A program made the translations under genes and the position numbers. Shown in pieces: positions 7,943 through 16,274 of a stretch of DNA of 19,389 bases; within the stretch, counting starts at the first letter, position 1; each line of letters begins with the position of its first letter. Origin of the DNA: Lachnospiraceae bacterium UBA4380 (GTDB taxonomy: Bacteria; Bacillota; Clostridia; Lachnospirales; Lachnospiraceae); NCBI GenBank assembly GCA_002390025.1, contig DGRU01000218.1:1-19389 (forward strand). Direction: 5' to 3'. The notes under the pieces were generated by a model, which saw only the letters and a program-made list of their open reading frames with translations, did no database searches and was not told where the DNA came from.

Positions 7943-7957
7943 CGGGAGGGGATGCAG

Positions 7958-9016
7958 ATGATAGATATTTATGGAACGCTTGGCCCGTCCTGTAATTCTC
8001 AGGATGTGCTCAGGGAGATGTTCTGCAGCGGAATGACGGGAATCCGTCTCAATCTGTCCCACATAAGCCTGCGGGAGAGCGAACGTCAGCTGGATATTTT
8101 TTACACAGCGGCCCTGCACGCCGGTGTGGAGCCCCTTCTTCTGATCGACATGCAGGGGCCGGAACTGAGGATCGGCCGCCTGCAGGCACCGCTGATGCTC
8201 TGCGAAGGACAGACTGCAGTCCTCTTTGACGAGGAGATGGGGGAGGACGAGATACTGTCCCTTCGGCGGCAGGGCGGTGCAGCCATTCCCATTCCTAAAG
8301 TTGTCTATGAGGCGCTGGACGTTGGAGAGGATATCCTCCTGGACGACGGACGTCTTCTGTTAAGGGTTTCGGAGAAATCCTCCGGCCGCGTCGGGGCACG
8401 GATCGAGCGGGGCGGCATGCTCTCGGGAAGAAAGAGCATCAAGGTGATCGGGGTTGATATACATCCGCCTACAATGACGGCGGCGGACAGGATGAACATT
8501 CGCGATGCGGTCCGGTTCGGTGTCACCGGAATCATGCAGCCCTTTGTCCGCAGCCGTGAGGATCTCATCGCTGTCAAGAAGGAACTGGAGGACAAGGGTG
8601 CCGGTGATCTTCAGCTGGTTGCCAAGATCGAGAACCGGGAGGGGATGGCACAGCTTGACAGCCTTCTGCCTGTCTGCGATGCTGTCTGCATCGCGCGCGG
8701 GGATCTGGGCAACGATATGCAGCTGTGGGAACTGCCCGCTGCGCAGAAAAAAATAGCTGCGGCCTGCAGGGCTTCCGGCAGATATTTCATGGTCGCGACC
8801 CAGATGCTTGCGAGCATGGAAAACCGCGCAGTTCCGACCAGGGCCGAAGTAAATGACATATTCAACACGGTTGCAGACGGCGCCTCGGGTGTAATGGTCA
8901 CCGGCGAGACAGCTGTCGGCAAATATCCTGTCGATGTGATCCGCTTCCTTGCCGCCACGGCACGGGAAGGAGAAAAATACCGAACAATCTGCCATCAGAA
9001 TGGGGGTAGCATATGA
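7958..9016 (+). CDS. Short pyruvate kinase-like protein lacking the C-terminal domain
   Basis: This 352-residue protein covers the pyruvate kinase barrel (A) and B domains but stops where the C-terminal regulatory domain (about 120 residues) would begin. Conserved features are GTLGPS (6-11), IRLNLSH (29-35), D-M-Q-G-P-E-L-R (64-71), KIENREG (223-229, catalytic Lys223), ARGDLG (246-251), ATQMLASM (280-287), PTRAEVND (293-300) and TGETAVGKYP (315-324). Differences are Met-Gln in place of the usual Thr-Lys after Asp64, and GIMQPFVRS in place of the usual IALSFVR-type motif. It may be a true unregulated pyruvate kinase or a paralogue with another job. An ATG at 7952 lies only 1 nt after GGAGGG, so the ATG at 7958 (7-nt spacing) is the better start. 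The stop overlaps the nrdR start by 4 bp. Confidence 0.85.
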   Translation: MIDIYGTLGPSCNSQDVLREMFCSGMTGIRLNLSHISLRESERQLDIFYTAALHAGVEPLLLIDMQGPELRIGRLQAPLMLCEGQTAVLFDEEMGEDEILSLRRQGGAAIPIPKVVYEALDVGEDILLDDGRLLLRVSEKSSGRVGARIERGGMLSGRKSIKVIGVDIHPPTMTAADRMNIRDAVRFGVTGIMQPFVRSREDLIAVKKELEDKGAGDLQLVAKIENREGMAQLDSLLPVCDAVCIARGDLGNDMQLWELPAAQKKIAAACRASGRYFMVATQMLASMENRAVPTRAEVNDIFNTVADGASGVMVTGETAVGKYPVDVIRFLAATAREGEKYRTICHQNGGSI

Positions 9017-9954: not shown

Positions 9955-10848
9955 CTATAGAACCATCTCCGAATAATTGTCCTGGATAAATGTGATAAAG
10001 CGGGAGACGGCGGGAATCTGGTATTTGCCTGCCAGATAGCCCATGTAGACAGTGTGATAAAACTCGTACTCCGGTGCCAGAGGCCGGATACAGATCTTGT
10101 CTATGCAGCTGTAGTTGATGTCCGCAACAAGAGCGATCCCGAAGCCTTCACGGACAAGGGAGGCAATACCGTTTTCATCGGGAGACTCGCAGATGATATT
10201 CGGATGCAGATTGTAGCGGCGGAAAAAGGTATGTGTCTGTTTGCCCAGACCGGACGTGCGGTCATAGGTCAGAACAGGATAGTGATTGAAAGCGTCGGCA
10301 TCTATATAGGGGCGCTCTGCGAGTTCATGTCCTGCCGGCATGATGACCACGAGTTTCTGACGCATAACGGGAACAAAGCGGATCGACATCTCGGAAGGGT
10401 CTCTTGTGCCGAAGATGATATCGTATTTTCCGTTTTTAAGCCCGTCAATGTTTTCGGCGCTCAGTCCCTGTGCAAAGTTGAAGGTGATTCCCTTGTTTTC
10501 CTTCAGTTCCATGAATGCGTGGGCTGCTCCCGGGATAAAGTGCATGGAGAGCGGGAATACATATGCGATGGAGATCTCACCGCCGCTGGCTGCGAGCTGA
10601 TGCATTTTCCGCTCTGCGACAGCGATATCATCGAGGATCTTCTCGGTCTGTTCCAGAAAAACCTGCCCTGCCTTTGTAAGAGAGACGTTTCTTCCCATTC
10701 GCTCGAAAAGGATTACGCCGAGTTCGTTTTCCAGAGATGCGATCGCTCTGGAGAGCGAAGGCTGGGAAATACTCAGATTGTCTGCGGCATGGTTAAAATG
10801 CTGTGTCTTGGCAGCCTGATAAAAATACTGCAGCTGATTTAATGTCAT
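9955..10848 (-). CDS. LysR family transcriptional regulator
   Basis: This 297-residue protein has a canonical LysR winged helix at residues 1-60 (MTLNQLQYFYQAAKTQHFNH, then SISQPSLSRAIASLENELG) and a periplasmic-binding-like effector domain from about residue 90 to the end. Family length is normal. It begins after AAAGGA on the minus strand and is divergent from the dehydrogenase/dehydratase/TRAP operon with a 435-bp gap. LysR proteins usually control the divergent gene set and bind one of its substrates or intermediates. Here that suggests quinate, shikimate, 3-dehydroquinate or 3-dehydroshikimate, which is inference. A T-N11-A box and a longer dyad lie in the gap. Confidence 0.95.
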   Translation of the reverse strand: MTLNQLQYFYQAAKTQHFNHAADNLSISQPSLSRAIASLENELGVILFERMGRNVSLTKAGQVFLEQTEKILDDIAVAERKMHQLAASGGEISIAYVFPLSMHFIPGAAHAFMELKENKGITFNFAQGLSAENIDGLKNGKYDIIFGTRDPSEMSIRFVPVMRQKLVVIMPAGHELAERPYIDADAFNHYPVLTYDRTSGLGKQTHTFFRRYNLHPNIICESPDENGIASLVREGFGIALVADINYSCIDKICIRPLAPEYEFYHTVYMGYLAGKYQIPAVSRFITFIQDNYSEMVL

Positions 10849-10870
10849 AGGGGAATCCTTTCGGAATCAA

Positions 10871-10895
10871 TAATTCGTTTTTCGAATTAATTATA
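10871..10895 (-). promoter_or_regulatory. Candidate lysR promoter -10 with adjoining inverted repeat
   Basis: A minus-strand TATAAT (10890-10895) sits next to the inverted repeat TAATTCG/CGAATTA (10871-10877 and 10883-10889, T5 between). A repeat at the start point is compatible with autorepression. No good -35 is visible. Confidence 0.4.
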
Positions 10896-10953
10896 CATGA
10901 ACATCTGCTGGAAGATTCATTCTTAAATTGAACTGATTTGATAGACTTAGTGC

Positions 10954-10968
10954 ATCAATATGATTGAT
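10954..10968. promoter_or_regulatory. LysR-type T-N11-A operator candidate
   Basis: ATCAAT-ATG-ATTGAT is a perfect 15-bp dyad containing T-N11-A (T10955, A10967), the core of LysR binding sites. It is centred about 52 bp or 69 bp upstream of the two possible operon start points. An outer TTGAT (10938-10942) also pairs with ATCAA (10954-10958). Confidence 0.55.
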
Positions 10969-10976
10969 TATAAGTA

Positions 10977-11023
10977 TTGGAAGTATTAATTGTTAGAAAT
11001 TATAATTGTAAAGAGAATATAAT
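10977..11023 (+). promoter_or_regulatory. Promoter(s) of the dehydrogenase-TRAP operon
   Basis: TTGGAA (10977-10982) and TATAAT (11001-11006) are spaced 18 bp. A second perfect TATAAT (11018-11023) has no good -35, as is usual for LysR-activated promoters, and its 3' part lies inside the dyad at 11019-11044. Which one is used cannot be decided from sequence. Confidence 0.55.
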
Positions 11024-11044
11024 TGTCCAACTATAGACAATTAT
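11019..11044. promoter_or_regulatory. 26-bp dyad at the operon promoter
   Basis: ATAATTGTC (11019-11027) and GACAATTAT (11036-11044) are perfect 9-bp arms around an 8-bp spacer. The left arm overlaps the second -10 box. It is a likely binding site for the divergent LysR regulator or another repressor. Confidence 0.55.
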
Positions 11045-11073
11045 CACATTGGGAAAATGGCTTTTTAAGGGCT

Positions 11074-11159
11074 CGGAACCGGATGTTTTGAGAACCGGAT
11101 GTCAGGAATGAACTGTAATTTCGGCCCGCTGGATCCGGGAGGCTTTTTTTCGTGTTCCG
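11074..11159 (+). promoter_or_regulatory. Attenuator-like leader before the shikimate dehydrogenase gene
   Basis: A short GC-rich hairpin (CCCG 11125-11128 with CGGG 11136-11139) is followed by GGC and seven T (11144-11150), like a weak intrinsic terminator. Upstream, GAACCGGATGT occurs twice (11076-11086 and 11092-11102). Its CCGGAT can pair with ATCCGG (11133-11138) in the hairpin, and CGGAAC (11074-11079) can pair with GTTCCG (11154-11159). Mutually exclusive folds are therefore possible. A further strong hairpin, GGAAACC/GGTTTCC, follows at 11201-11224. Confidence 0.4.
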
Positions 11160-11283
11160 GCATTGAACAGATTACAGAAAAGGCGGCCCTGAAAGTCCCT
11201 GGAAACCTTTTGAAAAGGGTTTCCCATGAGCGCTGCACGCTGCGTATGTATTCGCAGTACACATTTATAAAGGAGGACTTATT

Positions 11284-12162
11284 ATGGCAGAGAGACTCAC
11301 AGGACACACAGAACTCGTCGGTCTGATTGCTTATCCGATCAGACACTCCAGCTCTCCCGCAATGCACAATGAGGCATTTGCATATCTGGGACTGGACTAT
11401 GCATATCTTGCATTCGAAGTTGACAACAGCACACTGGAAGATGCCGTCAAGGGTATCCGCGCTCTGAAGCTGGTCGGCTCCAACGTTTCCATGCCCAACA
11501 AGACTGTTGTAGGACAGTATCTCGACAAGCTGTCTCCCGCAGCAGAACTTGTCGGCGCGGTCAACACCATTGTCAACAAGAACGGTGTCCTGGAAGGCCA
11601 CTGCACCGACGGTATCGGCTACATGCAGTCCCTGAAGGATTACGACATCGACGTGATCGGCAAGAAGATCACAGTAGTCGGCGCAGGCGGTGCCGGCACT
11701 GCCATCGAGATCCAGGCTGCTCTGGACGGCGTAGCAGAAATTTCCATCTTCAACATCAAAGACAAATTCTGGGCAAATGCCGAGAATACTGTCAAGAAGA
11801 TCAATGAGAAGACAAACTGCAAGGCACAGCTGTTTGACCTGGCAGACCACGAAGCCCTCAAGAGAGAGATCGACAGCAGTGTCCTTCTTGCAAACGCTAC
11901 CGGCTGCGGCATGAAGCCTCTCGAGGGTATGACATGGCTTCCCGACAAGTCCTATCTGCGTCCCGACCTGATCGTGACCGATACAGTTTATGCACCTGCA
12001 GAGACCGAGTTCCTGCGCATTGCAAAGGAAGTCGGCTGCAAGCATATGAACGGCTTCGGAATGATGCTCTTCCAGGGCGCCGCTGCCTTCAAGCTCTGGA
12101 CCAACGTGGATATGCCCATTGAACACATGAAGGAAGTCCTGGGAATCCATTACGGAGACTGA
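11284..12162 (+). CDS. Shikimate/quinate dehydrogenase, YdiB type
   Basis: This 292-residue member of the shikimate dehydrogenase family looks much closer to E. coli YdiB than to AroE: GLIAYPIRHSSSP at 13-25, AFEVDN at 43-48, VSMPNK at 68-73 and CTDG at 107-110. The catalytic pair should be Lys73 and Asp109. A Rossmann loop GAGGAGTA lies at 133-140. The cofactor loop reads FNIKDKF (156-162) instead of the NRT-R of NADP-specific AroE, so NAD(H) use is likely (inference from YdiB). The reaction is reversible oxidation of quinate to 3-dehydroquinate and/or shikimate to 3-dehydroshikimate in the cytoplasm. AAAGGAGG precedes the start. The gene leads the operon with aroD and the TRAP genes, as ydiB precedes aroD in E. 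coli. Confidence 0.9.
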   Translation: MAERLTGHTELVGLIAYPIRHSSSPAMHNEAFAYLGLDYAYLAFEVDNSTLEDAVKGIRALKLVGSNVSMPNKTVVGQYLDKLSPAAELVGAVNTIVNKNGVLEGHCTDGIGYMQSLKDYDIDVIGKKITVVGAGGAGTAIEIQAALDGVAEISIFNIKDKFWANAENTVKKINEKTNCKAQLFDLADHEALKREIDSSVLLANATGCGMKPLEGMTWLPDKSYLRPDLIVTDTVYAPAETEFLRIAKEVGCKHMNGFGMMLFQGAAAFKLWTNVDMPIEHMKEVLGIHYGD

Positions 12163-12195
12163 TGAACTGTAAATAATAGTTCTGTACTATTTAAA
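12163..12195 (+). repeat. Small hairpin and repeat-related motif between the two aro genes
   Basis: AATAGT pairs with ACTATT around TCTGT (12175-12191). The 18 bases at 12168-12185 differ at one position from the core of the 44-bp tandem repeats at 17117-17204. GAACT/AGTTC is an alternative pairing. Confidence 0.4.
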
Positions 12196-12220
12196 CACTC
12201 TATTTCAGGAGGAGAATATT

Positions 12221-12985
12221 ATGGCAAACGTGATCGAAGTCCGCGGCGTGAAGATCGGTGAAGGCACACCCAAGATCATCGTTCCGATCGTCGGAGTGAC
12301 CAAGGAAGAGATTCTGGCGGCTGCAGCTTCCTTTAAAGATGTCCGTCTGGATCTGGTCGAGTGGCGTGTCGACTGGTTTGAAGACGTCTTTGATTTTGCA
12401 AAGGTCGAGGATGTCCTGAAGGACCTGCGTCCCGCACTTGGAGATGCCCCGATCCTGTTCACATTCCGCACTTCCAAAGAAGGCGGAGAGAAAGCCATTG
12501 AGCCCGAGGCTTATGCAAAGCTCAACATCCAGGCTGCACAGACAGGTCTTGTAGACCTGATCGACGTCGAAGCATTCACCGGCGACGAGATCGTCAAAGA
12601 GATCATCGCAGGCGCACATGCGGCAGGTGTCAAGGTTGTCGCATCCAACCATGATTTCGGAAAGACTCCGGACAAGGACGACATCGTCGGCAGGCTCCGC
12701 AAGATGCAGGAGCTTGGAGCAGATATCCCCAAGATCGCTGTTATGCCCAAAAATAAAAAGGACGTCCTGGTCCTCCTCTCCGCAACCGAGGAGATGGCAA
12801 CAGACTACGCAGATCGTCCGATCATCACCATGTCCATGGCAGGAACAGGCCTCATCAGCCGTCTCTGCGGCGAAGTGTTCGGCAGCTCCTGCACATTCGG
12901 TGCCGTCGGCAAGGCATCTGCCCCCGGACAGATGAATGCGGCTGATCTGGATACAGTTCTGAATCTGATTCACAACAGTCTCTAA
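12221..12985 (+). CDS. aroD: 3-dehydroquinate dehydratase, type I
   Basis: This 254-residue class I (Schiff-base) 3-dehydroquinase converts 3-dehydroquinate to 3-dehydroshikimate in the cytoplasm. Active-site residues are all present: Glu47 and Arg49 (VEWRVD), His144 (SNHDF), the Schiff-base Lys171 (KIAVMPKN), Arg214 (LISRLCGEVFGS) and Gln237 (SAPGQ). These correspond one for one to the Salmonella enzyme. The length is normal. AGGAGG lies 8 nt before the start. It sits 58 bp after the YdiB-type dehydrogenase gene and 242 bp before the TRAP genes. Paired with that enzyme it links quinate and shikimate; no 3-dehydroshikimate dehydratase is nearby, so an onward route to protocatechuate is not visible. 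Confidence 0.97.
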   Translation: MANVIEVRGVKIGEGTPKIIVPIVGVTKEEILAAAASFKDVRLDLVEWRVDWFEDVFDFAKVEDVLKDLRPALGDAPILFTFRTSKEGGEKAIEPEAYAKLNIQAAQTGLVDLIDVEAFTGDEIVKEIIAGAHAAGVKVVASNHDFGKTPDKDDIVGRLRKMQELGADIPKIAVMPKNKKDVLVLLSATEEMATDYADRPIITMSMAGTGLISRLCGEVFGSSCTFGAVGKASAPGQMNAADLDTVLNLIHNSL

Positions 12986-13003
12986 TCTGATAAGTTCAAT
13001 TGC

Positions 13004-13102
13004 GGCGGAAATCCTGTGCGTCTCCGGTCAGGAAATCTACTCCTGTAAGCAGTGAGACAAAAGATCTTTCGAGCTTGTCTTGAAAGAGGCAGGGTTTCCG
13101 CC
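13004..13102 (+). ncRNA. Structured intercistronic RNA, possible riboswitch of unknown class
   Basis: In the 242-bp gap between aroD and dctQ, 13004-13016 pairs with 13090-13102 over 13 bp (one G·U). Inside, GTCTC (13020-13024) pairs with GAGAC (13054-13058), enclosing CAGGA/TCCTG (13029-13033 with 13041-13045) and a 7-nt loop. A third arm, AAG-A-TC/GA-G-CTT, folds at 13061-13076. The result is a three-way junction closed by a long P1 helix. I do not recognise it as a known riboswitch class. A terminator-like hairpin follows at 13131. Confidence 0.5.
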
Positions 13103-13130
13103 TGCATTCATTCATTTATGAAACTGCTCA

Positions 13131-13197
13131 GCATGCGTGTGCGGCCTTTCTGCAATAAAAGGGGGCAGACAGGCCGGTTTATGCATGCCTTGTTTTT
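13131..13197 (+). terminator. Terminator-like hairpin before the TRAP genes
   Basis: GCATGC (13131-13136) pairs with GCATGC (13183-13188), CGGCCT (13142-13147) with AGGCCG (13171-13176), and TCTGC (13149-13153) with GCAGA (13165-13169). CTTGTTTTT follows directly. The internal loop makes it imperfect, which fits a conditional or leaky terminator that sets transporter expression. It ends 15 nt before the dctQ ribosome site. Confidence 0.45.
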
Positions 13198-13227
13198 GCA
13201 GCCAATAAATCGGAGGTCCGGTAAAAA

Positions 13228-13770
13228 GTGAAAAAAGTTCTCTTATATGTGGATGAATATCTGGAAGAGTTTGTTATGACCATTCTGCTGATCCTGATGG
13301 CAGTGATCATGGGCATTCAGGTTCTCTCCCGATATGCATTCGGTATGTCGTTATCCTGGTCGGAAGAGGTTACACGTTATCTGTTCATCTGGTCTGCTTT
13401 TATCAGCGTCAGCCTCTGCACCAAGAAGTTCCTGGCGATCAAGATCGACCAGTTTGTCAGAATCTTTTCCAAGAGGGGAAGAGCCATCCTCGGTCTGATC
13501 AACTACACCATTCAGTTTGCTTTCTTTGTTTATCTGGTTCCTTACGCATGGCGCTATCTGATGACCACCATCAAGAGCGGACAGGTCAGTCCCGCGTGCG
13601 GAATTCCCATGTACTACATCCAGTCGGCTCCGCTGATCTGCTTTTCACTGTGTGTGATCCGTATCGCGGAACGTTGGCTTCTCGAACTGCATAATCTCAA
13701 AAACAACGACGATCTTGTGAGATGGCCTTCGCGCATTCACAAAGAGTCCAAGGGCAGTGACGGAAAGTAA
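13228..13770 (+). CDS. TRAP transporter small membrane subunit (DctQ family)
   Basis: This 180-residue protein has four membrane helices (about 14-33, 50-66, 86-108 and 128-150) and the family pattern: QVLSRYAFGMSLSWSEEVTRYLFIW at about residues 31-55, followed by KIDQF. DctQ subunits pair with DctM to form the secondary, Na+-driven membrane part of TRAP importers. The start is GTG (GTGAAAAAAG), with GGAGGT 10 nt upstream; no ATG is better placed. The final 25 residues are hydrophilic. dctM starts 19 bp after the stop. Confidence 0.93.
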   Translation: MKKVLLYVDEYLEEFVMTILLILMAVIMGIQVLSRYAFGMSLSWSEEVTRYLFIWSAFISVSLCTKKFLAIKIDQFVRIFSKRGRAILGLINYTIQFAFFVYLVPYAWRYLMTTIKSGQVSPACGIPMYYIQSAPLICFSLCVIRIAERWLLELHNLKNNDDLVRWPSRIHKESKGSDGK

Positions 13771-13789
13771 TTGAGAAAGGGGAACCGGT

Positions 13790-15079
13790 ATGTCACCTAT
13801 TGTTGTATTTATTCTGTTTGCGCTCTTTCTTCTGATTGCGATCCCTGTCTCGGTCACACTGGGCCTTGTCGCAGTGCTTCCGGGTGCATTTGATCCCTCC
13901 TTTACGGCGAGTGCAAGTTATGTCATCCGTTCCATGGTGGGCGGTATCGACAGTTTCCCGCTTCTGGCGGTTCCGATGTTCGTTCTTGCGGGCATCCTCA
14001 TGGCACGCGGACAGATTTCCAAGAGACTGTTCGATGTCTTTTCCTATTTCCTCGGAAAACGTACTGCAGGTATTCCCTGCGCGGTCATCATTACCTGCCT
14101 GTTCTACGGCGCGATCTCGGGCTCCGCTCCCGCGACCGTCGCGGCAGTCGGCTCTATGACGATCCCGCTTCTGATCGATATGGGATATGACAAGGTCTTC
14201 TCCACGGCTATCGTCGCCGTTGCGGGCGGCCTGGGCGTCATCATCCCTCCCAGCATTCCCTTCATCATGTTCGCCATGGCATCCGGCGCCTCTGTCAGTG
14301 ATCTCTTCCTGGCAGGTATCGTGCCCGGCGTCCTGATCGGTGTTCTGCTCATGGCCTACGCCTTTGTCTACTGCAAGAAAAACGGCGAAGACCGGGAGAA
14401 GATCGACAGCCAGATCAATGTCCTCCATGAAAAAGGATTTTTCAAGGTCTTCAGGGAGAGCTTTTTTGCCATCCTGAGTCCCGTGATCGTTCTGGGGTGC
14501 ATCTATTCCGGCGTTGCCTCCCCTACCGAGGCCGCGGTCATTTCCGTTTTCTATTCGCTGCTCATCAGTATGTTCATCTACAAGACCCTCAAGTTCCGTG
14601 ACCTGTGGGGCATCCTGGTGGAAGCGATGAAAACCTATTCCCCGATCATGTTCATCCTTGCGGCATCCACTGCTTTCTCCCGTGTCCTGACACTGATGCA
14701 GGTGCCCCAGATGGTCAGTGCCTTCATCCTGGAGAGCTTCACCAACAAGATCATCCTTCTGATCGTCATCAACATCTTCCTGCTCCTTGTCGGTATGGTC
14801 ATGGATACGACGCCTGCGATCCTCATCCTCTCGCCCATCCTTCTTCCCATCGTCACTGCAGTAGGCATGAATCCGATTCACTTCGGTGTTGTCATGGTCG
14901 TCAACCTGGCGATCGGTTTCGTCACACCTCCCATCGGCGTCAACCTCTTTGTCGCAAGTTCTCTGACAGATGTGCCTGTCATGGATATTGCCAAGAAGGC
15001 CATGCCCATGATCATCATGTTCCTGATTGCACTGCTGCTGATCACCTATATTCCGGCAATCAGCCTGTGCCTGCTGTGA
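13790..15079 (+). CDS. TRAP transporter large membrane subunit (DctM family)
   Basis: This 429-residue, very hydrophobic protein has about 11-12 membrane segments and the DctM landmarks: FPLLAVPMFVLAG, GAISGSAPATVAAVGS, GGLGVIIPPSIPFIMF, ASPTEAAVISVFYS and, near the end, AIGFVTPPIGVNLFVAS. It is the Na+-coupled transport channel of the TRAP complex in the cytoplasmic membrane. GAAAGGGG precedes the ATG, and the next gene starts 14 bp after the stop. The length is normal. Both membrane subunits are separate here rather than fused. Confidence 0.96.
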   Translation: MSPIVVFILFALFLLIAIPVSVTLGLVAVLPGAFDPSFTASASYVIRSMVGGIDSFPLLAVPMFVLAGILMARGQISKRLFDVFSYFLGKRTAGIPCAVIITCLFYGAISGSAPATVAAVGSMTIPLLIDMGYDKVFSTAIVAVAGGLGVIIPPSIPFIMFAMASGASVSDLFLAGIVPGVLIGVLLMAYAFVYCKKNGEDREKIDSQINVLHEKGFFKVFRESFFAILSPVIVLGCIYSGVASPTEAAVISVFYSLLISMFIYKTLKFRDLWGILVEAMKTYSPIMFILAASTAFSRVLTLMQVPQMVSAFILESFTNKIILLIVINIFLLLVGMVMDTTPAILILSPILLPIVTAVGMNPIHFGVVMVVNLAIGFVTPPIGVNLFVASSLTDVPVMDIAKKAMPMIIMFLIALLLITYIPAISLCLL

Positions 15080-15093
15080 GAAAGGAGGAAAGC

Positions 15094-16137
15094 ATGAAAA
15101 AATTCAGTCTCAAGCACAGTTTCATGGCGGTCTGCCTGCTTACAGCCCTCCTCGTCCTCACGCTGACCGGCTGCGGCGCAGCATCCGACGGCACACAGAC
15201 CTATGCATGGCCTCTGGGAACCTCCAGTCCCGAGGACACGGTCACCCAGATCTACGCAGAGCGTTTCGCAGAAGAGGTATCCCGCCTCTCCGACGGAAAG
15301 ATGCGCATTCAGGTCTACCCCAACAGTATCGTAGGCGGTGACCGCGAACTGCTCGAGTCCTGCAAGGATGGCGATATTCCCTTCGTCGTGCAGAATACAG
15401 CACCTCAGGTTACTTTCCTTCCTGATATCGCCGTATTCGATATGCCCTGCCTGTTTGACAGCATTCAGGACGTTCGCGACCACATCGACAATCCGGAATT
15501 CATGAAACAGGTCAACCAGGTCTACAAGGACGGCGGCTATGAGCTGCTGGGCTACGCGGACCAGGGTTTCCGTGTCATGACCTCCAACAAGGACGTCTAC
15601 ACTGCCAATGACCTCAAGGGCCAGAAGATCCGCACCATGGAGAACCCCTACCATCTGCTCTTCTGGAAATCCCTGGGCGCCAACCCCACACCCATGACTT
15701 TCTCCGAGGTTTACATCGGCCTCCAGCAGGGTACCATTGACGCGCAGGAGAACCCCTACGAAGTTATCGTATCCAACAGACTTTACGAGCAGCAGGACTA
15801 CGTCATCGAGACCAATCACCTGCCTCACCTGATCTCCCTGATCGTCAGCAGCGAGTTCATGGACAGCCTGCCGGAGGACCAGCAGGCCATCATCCGTGAA
15901 GCCGCCGAGACGGCAAAGGTGGAAGCACGCCAGGCTTCTGACGAGCGTATCGCTTCCAGGATCGCTACCATCGAAGAGAGCGGCAGCCAGATCAACCGCC
16001 TGTCAGATGAGAACATGCTGGTCATCCGCCAGAAGTGTATCCCGGTCTATGACAAGATCGAAGAGAATGTCTCCCCTTCCCTGGTCGAGGCATACTGCGG
16101 AGAGAAACTCAAAGAGATCCGCGCGATGGTTCCGTAA
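15094..16137 (+). CDS. TRAP transporter substrate-binding lipoprotein (DctP family)
   Basis: This 347-residue extracytoplasmic solute receptor has a basic N-terminus, a hydrophobic core and the lipobox L-T-G-C with Cys27 as lipidation site, so it is tethered to the outer membrane face. The DctP domain includes GFRVMTS (158-164), LKGQKIRTMENP (174-185) and NPTPMTFSEVYIGLQQG (197-213), then D216 and QENP (218-221). Arg180 is the family Arg that grips a substrate carboxylate, as expected for an organic acid such as quinate or shikimate; the ligand is inferred from the neighbours. I chose the ATG at 15094 behind AAAGGAGG. The frame is open upstream to 14605, but that part overlaps dctM out of frame. 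Confidence 0.94.
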   Translation: MKKFSLKHSFMAVCLLTALLVLTLTGCGAASDGTQTYAWPLGTSSPEDTVTQIYAERFAEEVSRLSDGKMRIQVYPNSIVGGDRELLESCKDGDIPFVVQNTAPQVTFLPDIAVFDMPCLFDSIQDVRDHIDNPEFMKQVNQVYKDGGYELLGYADQGFRVMTSNKDVYTANDLKGQKIRTMENPYHLLFWKSLGANPTPMTFSEVYIGLQQGTIDAQENPYEVIVSNRLYEQQDYVIETNHLPHLISLIVSSEFMDSLPEDQQAIIREAAETAKVEARQASDERIASRIATIEESGSQINRLSDENMLVIRQKCIPVYDKIEENVSPSLVEAYCGEKLKEIRAMVP

Positions 16138-16168
16138 TAGGATCGGACATCTGGATGTCTGAAAAGAG

Positions 16169-16202
16169 CAGGCCGCTCCCCGGCAGGGGGCGGCCTGTTT
16201 TT
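16169..16202 (+). terminator. Strong intrinsic terminator of the TRAP operon
   Basis: The 12-bp stem 16169-16180 / 16186-16197 (CAGGCCGC... with ...CGGCCTG, one G·U) has a 5-nt loop and is followed by five T. A small GACAT/ATGTC hairpin (16146-16159) lies between it and the dctP stop. Confidence 0.92.
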
Positions 16203-16274
16203 GCATGATCGGGCAGGGAAAGACGGAAGTAGTGTCTGCCGCTGACATGCGGGCATGCCATGACAAGAAATAGG

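Follow-up and report, generated by a model that had tools for sequence, protein, structure and literature searches.

In Sinorhizobium meliloti, the receptor SMb20036 of a tripartite ATP-independent periplasmic (TRAP) transporter is encoded beside an annotated aroE. Its Kd is 5.9 nM for D-quinate and 1e-4 M for shikimate, and quinate induces the gene 8.7-fold (PMC3454389). A comparable set of genes is described here in Lachnospiraceae bacterium UBA4380, on contig DGRU01000218.1 (the window, meaning the whole analyzed stretch of 19,389 nucleotides), where a LysR-type regulator gene diverges from aroE, aroD, dctQ, dctM, and dctP. We propose, with a probability of about 0.7, that these genes form a regulated operon for the uptake and use of plant hydroaromatic acids, most likely quinate and/or shikimate.

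In S. meliloti the TRAP genes SMb20034-SMb20036 adjoin aroE (SMb20037), as they do in the window, and the receptor retains residues R160, R180, and N220 of the window DctP. The pSymB locus that was compared (L100) is unannotated, and its genes were assigned by order and place. Unlike in the window, the order is DctQ, DctM, DctP, AroE and the host is an aerobic rhizobium; its AroE is 29% identical to that of the window, and no AroD was found beside the locus with the window AroD as the query. The Listeria qui genes (QuiR, the Lmo2234-type protein, and 3tnl) resemble the window in the AroE type and, by a narrow margin, in the LysR effector domain. They are, however, closer to a second gene set of the same genome (contigs C224 and C75), and, unlike them, the window operon lacks a gene for a dehydratase; we know of no TRAP transporter in the qui system. 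In Escherichia coli, ydiB and aroD are adjacent and likewise pair a dehydrogenase (YdiB, 1npd and 1vi2) with a type I dehydroquinase, to our knowledge with no TRAP genes beside them, and the window enzyme misses the YdiB cut-off. For E. coli K-12, the authors of one study report that they saw no compelling evidence of quinate transport (PMC3781023). A rumen operational taxonomic unit, Bt-01708_Bf, is predicted to convert quinate into chorismate (PMC10054779), so that destination and habitat match our proposal; its dehydratase is of type II, in contrast to the window's, and the sections seen do not tie quinate use to a TRAP importer. Another source, as far as it was available, is relevant to biosynthesis alone (PMC5069950). 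The initial annotation knew of no characterized TRAP importer for these compounds in gut Clostridia. No paper on such import by gut Clostridia, and no description of quinate or shikimate importers in gut anaerobes, was found in the open PubMed Central literature, outside which most subscription papers lie; since the S. meliloti quinate receptor is published, the principle of import is not new. The gut version differs from this known kind in lineage, gene order, aroD, and its partners, namely an old yellow enzyme (OYE), a major facilitator superfamily (MFS) transporter, and a kinase. What look new are the spread in gut bacteria and these partner genes.

The TRAP and aro genes of the window are found together in many genomes. 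A search with DctP returned 261 relatives, and the best 80 of them (60-99% identity) were kept, their neighboring genes being scored by tblastn with the window's and related genes. Among these 80 loci, an aroE-type gene is present in 71, aroD in 62, either of the two in 73, MFS in 57, OYE in 52, and LysR in 55. For the 70 loci whose upstream sequence extends to 6 kb or more, the corresponding counts are 66, 58, 67, 54, 52, and 55, and with at least 9 kb upstream aroE or aroD is found in 57 of 58. As a control, 120 same-family genomes were searched, 106 DctP places were listed, and 40 were inspected (6 close and 34 distant, chosen mostly by score order with few skipped; 25 of the distant loci are flanked on each side by 4 kb or more). 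All six places where DctP is 54-68% identical have aroE or aroD nearby, compared with one of the 34 at 26-41% identity, an aroE relative beside a 41% DctP (L116). Fisher's exact p is 1.8e-6 for close vs. distant receptors, which is only a guide since the genomes share ancestry. Conservation of TRAP genes next to aro genes across Clostridia, a check proposed by the initial annotation, is thus borne out and is specific to this dctP group (67/70 vs. 1/34). The closest DctP relatives come from uncultured Lachnospiraceae genomes (L005-L008, 94-99% identical). Pseudobutyrivibrio ruminis DSM 9787 (L012) and Coprococcus comes (L047) are cultured carriers, which allow direct testing of the transporter's role. 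Ten loci lie on contigs of metagenome-assembled genomes labeled Bacteroidaceae or Bacteroidales (L023, L024, L026, L027, L031, L036, L048, L061, L067, L072), with the order aroE-dctQMP, a DctP 67-74% identical to the window's, and neither MFS nor OYE; such contigs suggest either inter-phylum transfer or mis-binning.

All six proteins of the gene set pass the Pfam cut-offs of their domains, and the gene positions and identities given initially hold. AroE (11284-12162, plus strand, 292 residues, Shikimate_dh_N and SDH_C) is a shikimate (quinate/shikimate) dehydrogenase, scoring 513.8 bits against NF001313 "shikimate dehydrogenase" (cut-off 431) and 205.7 bits against TIGR00507 (cut-off 200.2). 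It had been called YdiB-type. Its place in the shikimate dehydrogenase superfamily stands, while the YdiB label is loose: the score for NF009390 is 323.8 bits vs. a cut-off of 349, and the YdiB-type structures 3t4e, 1vi2, and 1npd (296-305 bits) come behind the closest solved protein, Listeria 3tnl (421.3 bits). K73 and D109, which we take to be the catalytic Lys and Asp, are invariant in an alignment of nine sequences. AroD (12221-12985, plus strand, 254 residues, DHquinase_I) is a type I 3-dehydroquinate dehydratase with 246.1 bits against TIGR01093 (cut-off 139.3); motif position places H144 and K171, presumably the catalytic His and the Schiff-base Lys. The transporter follows on the same strand, with the small membrane subunit DctQ (13228-13770, 180 residues, GTG start), the large membrane subunit DctM (13790-15079, 429 residues), and the solute receptor DctP (15094-16137, 347 residues), which score 108.8, 361.1, and 251 bits against PF04290, PF06808, and PF03480, all above the curated cut-offs. 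Purine-rich ribosome-binding sites precede all five genes. In an alignment of 30 receptor sequences R160, R180, F203, and N220 are invariant, including the Arg180 singled out initially as the acid-binding residue (KIR at 178-180), and C27 is nearly so, DctP being likely a lipoprotein. The prediction that the imported compound is a hydroaromatic acid (quinate, shikimate, or one of their dehydro forms) has good support. By analogy with S. meliloti, quinate is tentatively favored over shikimate as the main ligand.

The regulator gene (9955-10848, minus strand, HTH_1 and LysR_substrate domains) is divergent from the operon. Among 48 solved LysR-type sequences its effector domain best matches, by a narrow margin, QuiR 5ted (83.0 bits), a structure with shikimate bound (PMC11602165). 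Between the two divergent genes, TCAATATGATTGA (10955-10967, not assigned to a strand) is a T-N11-A palindrome within a longer footprint conserved in L005, L006, L007, and partly L010, which makes it a candidate LysR box and a predicted regulator-binding site. Directly downstream, on the plus strand, is a promoter-like TTGGAA-18-TATAAT (10977-11006) with 10 of 12 consensus matches; the region as a whole has 16 promoter-like sites vs. 7.0 +/- 3.2 in shuffled sequences. The structured gap between aroD and dctQ (12986-13227, plus strand) folds at -91.4 kcal/mol, a stability reached by none of 200 shuffles. It is a long hairpin of the GGCGGAAATCC...GGTTTCCGCC type common to L005 and L006, and the L007 gap has another sequence with a similar inverted repeat. 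Rfam has no match for this gap, which is possibly an attenuator or a small repeat element. At the end of the operon, the intrinsic terminator noted earlier as strong (16164-16202, plus strand) folds at -32.6 kcal/mol, again equaled by none of 200 shuffles, although it is not among the listings of a separate consensus scan.

The aroE and aroD genes could instead be ordinary biosynthetic ones, with the TRAP transporter carrying a different acid and sharing their promoter and not their substrate. The source genome (G000) is a draft (2.9 Mb, 229 contigs, 75% complete), so gene absences in it are provisional. AroD is its sole detected dehydroquinase, DHquinase_I matching the window only and a profile search for DHquinase_II (AroQ) finding none in its contigs, and so the enzyme may also serve biosynthesis. 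AroE-family genes stand at three places: the window, contig C75, and contig C143, where aroC, an aroE-aroK fusion, and aroA lie in a row (L086 2760-7472). The initial annotation had weighed uptake against the chance that the window pair is the only aroE and aroD of the genome, and had looked to a second aroE and an aroQ. The biosynthetic-type aroE is there, fused to aroK by aroC and aroA, and no aroQ was detected, leaving AroD as the only dehydroquinase found. Within the genus (16 genomes, G000 and G120-G134), AroD is present in nine, AroQ in six, neither in one, and both together in none. This distribution counts against AroD as a purely catabolic enzyme. The co-occurrence of TRAP and aro genes over several families and Bacteroidales, the separate aroE-aroK fusion, the second independent AroE/TRAP pair of this genome, and the S. 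meliloti precedent all speak against shared promoters as the explanation, and we consider it very unlikely.

Several observations do weigh against the uptake reading. Five same-genus genomes with AroD (G120, G121, G122, G128, G131) have no close DctP, the limits being E 1e-50 and an identity above 35%, so AroD may be mainly biosynthetic. Taken with the mutual exclusion of AroD and AroQ, this means that AroD may have a housekeeping role in some members of the genus and serve both routes. Three loci with long flanks (L014, L033, L055) have neither aroE nor aroD, and the ten Bacteroidaceae/Bacteroidales loci have aroE and TRAP genes without aroD. The S. meliloti receptor is 30% identical to the window DctP, within the 26-41% of TRAP receptors that are not beside aro genes. 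The conserved Arg, Phe, and Asn of DctP are general to TRAP receptors, and its structure matches are spread over the whole of that family. Finally, the lead of QuiR 5ted over BenM 3k1m is only 5 bits (83.0 vs. 78.1).

On the basis of the gene content, order, conservation, and family membership observed, a model can be proposed for the ligand, its transport, the direction of the enzymes, their regulation, and the destination of the product. A membrane-anchored DctP would bind the hydroaromatic acid via its conserved arginines, and DctQM would bring it into the cell. Quinate would then be oxidized to 3-dehydroquinate by AroE and dehydrated to 3-dehydroshikimate by AroD, which AroE would reduce to shikimate; as the same enzyme would carry out an oxidation and then a reduction, the route would be redox-neutral. 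The divergent LysR, distantly like the shikimate-sensing QuiR, probably activates the operon. Shikimate would reach chorismate through AroE/AroK, AroA, and AroC encoded elsewhere in the genome. This destination is favored because of the lower-half operon on C143 and because of a kinase fusion that recurs near the cluster. Clustering of open reading frames over the 80 loci yields, as recurring families, DctP, DctM, AroE, DctQ, MFS, LysR, AroD, OYE, and a chorismate mutase-shikimate kinase fusion (CM_2 and SKI domains; L012 888-1670), the last matched over at least 600 nt in 30 loci and by any match in 34.

The OYE partner may offer a different fate for the imported acid. BaiCD reduces an enone, and lactobacilli are known from old biochemistry to reduce quinate to dihydroshikimate. 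The OYE could similarly reduce the ring double bond of 3-dehydroshikimate, itself an enone, and a second AroE would then give dihydroshikimate, so that the pathway would dispose of NADH. Of the 61 non-Bacteroidales loci whose upstream sequence is at least 6 kb long, 52 have a gene of the OYE/dienoyl-CoA-reductase type near the cluster, and at least two AroE-type genes are found in 11 of the 80 loci. The L012 protein has Oxidored_FMN and pyridine-nucleotide domains, and its best solved match is NCR 6qkg followed by 2,4-dienoyl-CoA reductase 1ps9. BaiCD and bilirubin reductase are the best models for it, yet the model scores are far below their cut-offs (BaiCD 487 bits vs. 825). Moreover, neither OYE nor MFS is found at the operon site in the window or in the relatives nearest to it (L005, L006, L007, and L010), and the kinase fusions point to biosynthesis. 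Such an electron sink is a possible but rather doubtful use of the acids.

The second AroE/TRAP set brings in another route. On C75, AroE2 (65-66% identical to AroE) is convergent with DctQ2-M2-P2 (L085 1376-4328 and 282-1160), and DctP2 is 46-49% identical to DctP. C224 (L098 428-3926) has a LysR gene, a 281-residue TIM-barrel protein, and an OYE gene. In G127, C75- and C224-type genes occupy a single contig that also has a further AroE and an MFS gene, about 18 kb from the window-type cluster; by this comparison, the set is split over two contigs in the source genome. The C224 regulator is clearly QuiR-like (5ted 155.7 bits, next CatM 100.6), and the TIM-barrel protein matches Listeria Lmo2234 (2g0w) with 328 bits, making it a candidate 3-dehydroshikimate dehydratase by similarity. 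Imported acids might therefore be dehydrated toward protocatechuate as in Listeria, since the QuiR-like LysR, the Lmo2234-like protein, and the OYE, judged by G127, adjoin the second AroE/TRAP set. The dehydratase label is weak, however, with 29.7 bits for NCBIfam QuiC and nothing more specific in Pfam than a xylose-isomerase-like TIM barrel, and tblastn with the C224 candidate as sole query (other dehydratase classes were not queried) places such a gene beside none of the 80 window-type clusters. We regard this fate as unlikely for acids taken up by the window operon, although it could run side by side with the electron sink. The earlier statement that no 3-dehydroshikimate dehydratase is present remains correct for the operon and does not clearly extend to the genome, in view of the C224 candidate. 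Between the two clusters of G127 (L167 11858-15013) there is also a 1051-residue elongation-factor-G-like protein with a C-terminal YacP-like NYN domain.

For the upper shikimate pathway, a profile search of the draft found no 3-dehydroquinate (DHQ) synthase and no class I 3-deoxy-D-arabino-heptulosonate 7-phosphate (DAHP) synthase in the source genome, class II and the archaeal-type dehydroquinate route not being searched. In the close relative G132, the operon corresponding to that on C143 reads DAHP synthase, pheA, aroB, aroC, an aroE fragment, and aroA; in the source genome, the gene directly before aroC is of the 2-phosphosulfolactate-phosphatase family, in place of this aroB. A survey of the genomes of 50 of the 80 loci (L020 left out) gave 70 rows for DHQ synthase (PF01761), of which 9 lack the enzyme (G000, G126, G127, G144, G145, G150, G158, G171, G176), and 63 for DAHP synthase (PF00793), of which 9 lack it (G000, G010, G126, G127, G144, G145, G150, G168, G177), these rows overlapping in that G127/G145, G132/G147, and G129/G149 look like identical genomes. 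Both enzymes are missing from G127 (a genome of this genus that is 92% complete and has a 98% identical DctP), G144 (which holds L005), G126, and G150, and most other surveyed rows keep both. Because the two genes share one contig in G128, G129, and G132, a single gap could remove both. The loss looks real in a few close genomes but is no rule among cluster carriers. Uptake feeding chorismate is possibly a necessity for this species group.

Taken further, the species group would have lost DAHP synthase and DHQ synthase and would draw all of its chorismate from imported plant quinate or shikimate, and LysR-aroE-MFS-aroD-TRAP-OYE would more broadly be an unrecognized system for hydroaromatic acids in gut Lachnospiraceae, Erysipelotrichaceae, and rumen Bacteroidales. 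We put this forward as speculative, and on balance improbable in its full extent. If chorismate did come from import only, the TRAP systems would be required for growth without aromatic amino acids. Coffee, fruit, and forage supply quinate, which, like shikimate, arrives in the gut in bulk, and a conserved transporter would give a handle on the consumers of both, on the source of quinate-derived host metabolites, and on whether some rumen bacteria rely on plant hydroaromatics for aromatic amino acids. Elsewhere in the window, at 7952-9016, a 354-residue pyruvate kinase lacks the usual C-terminal domain and consists of the barrel domain only.

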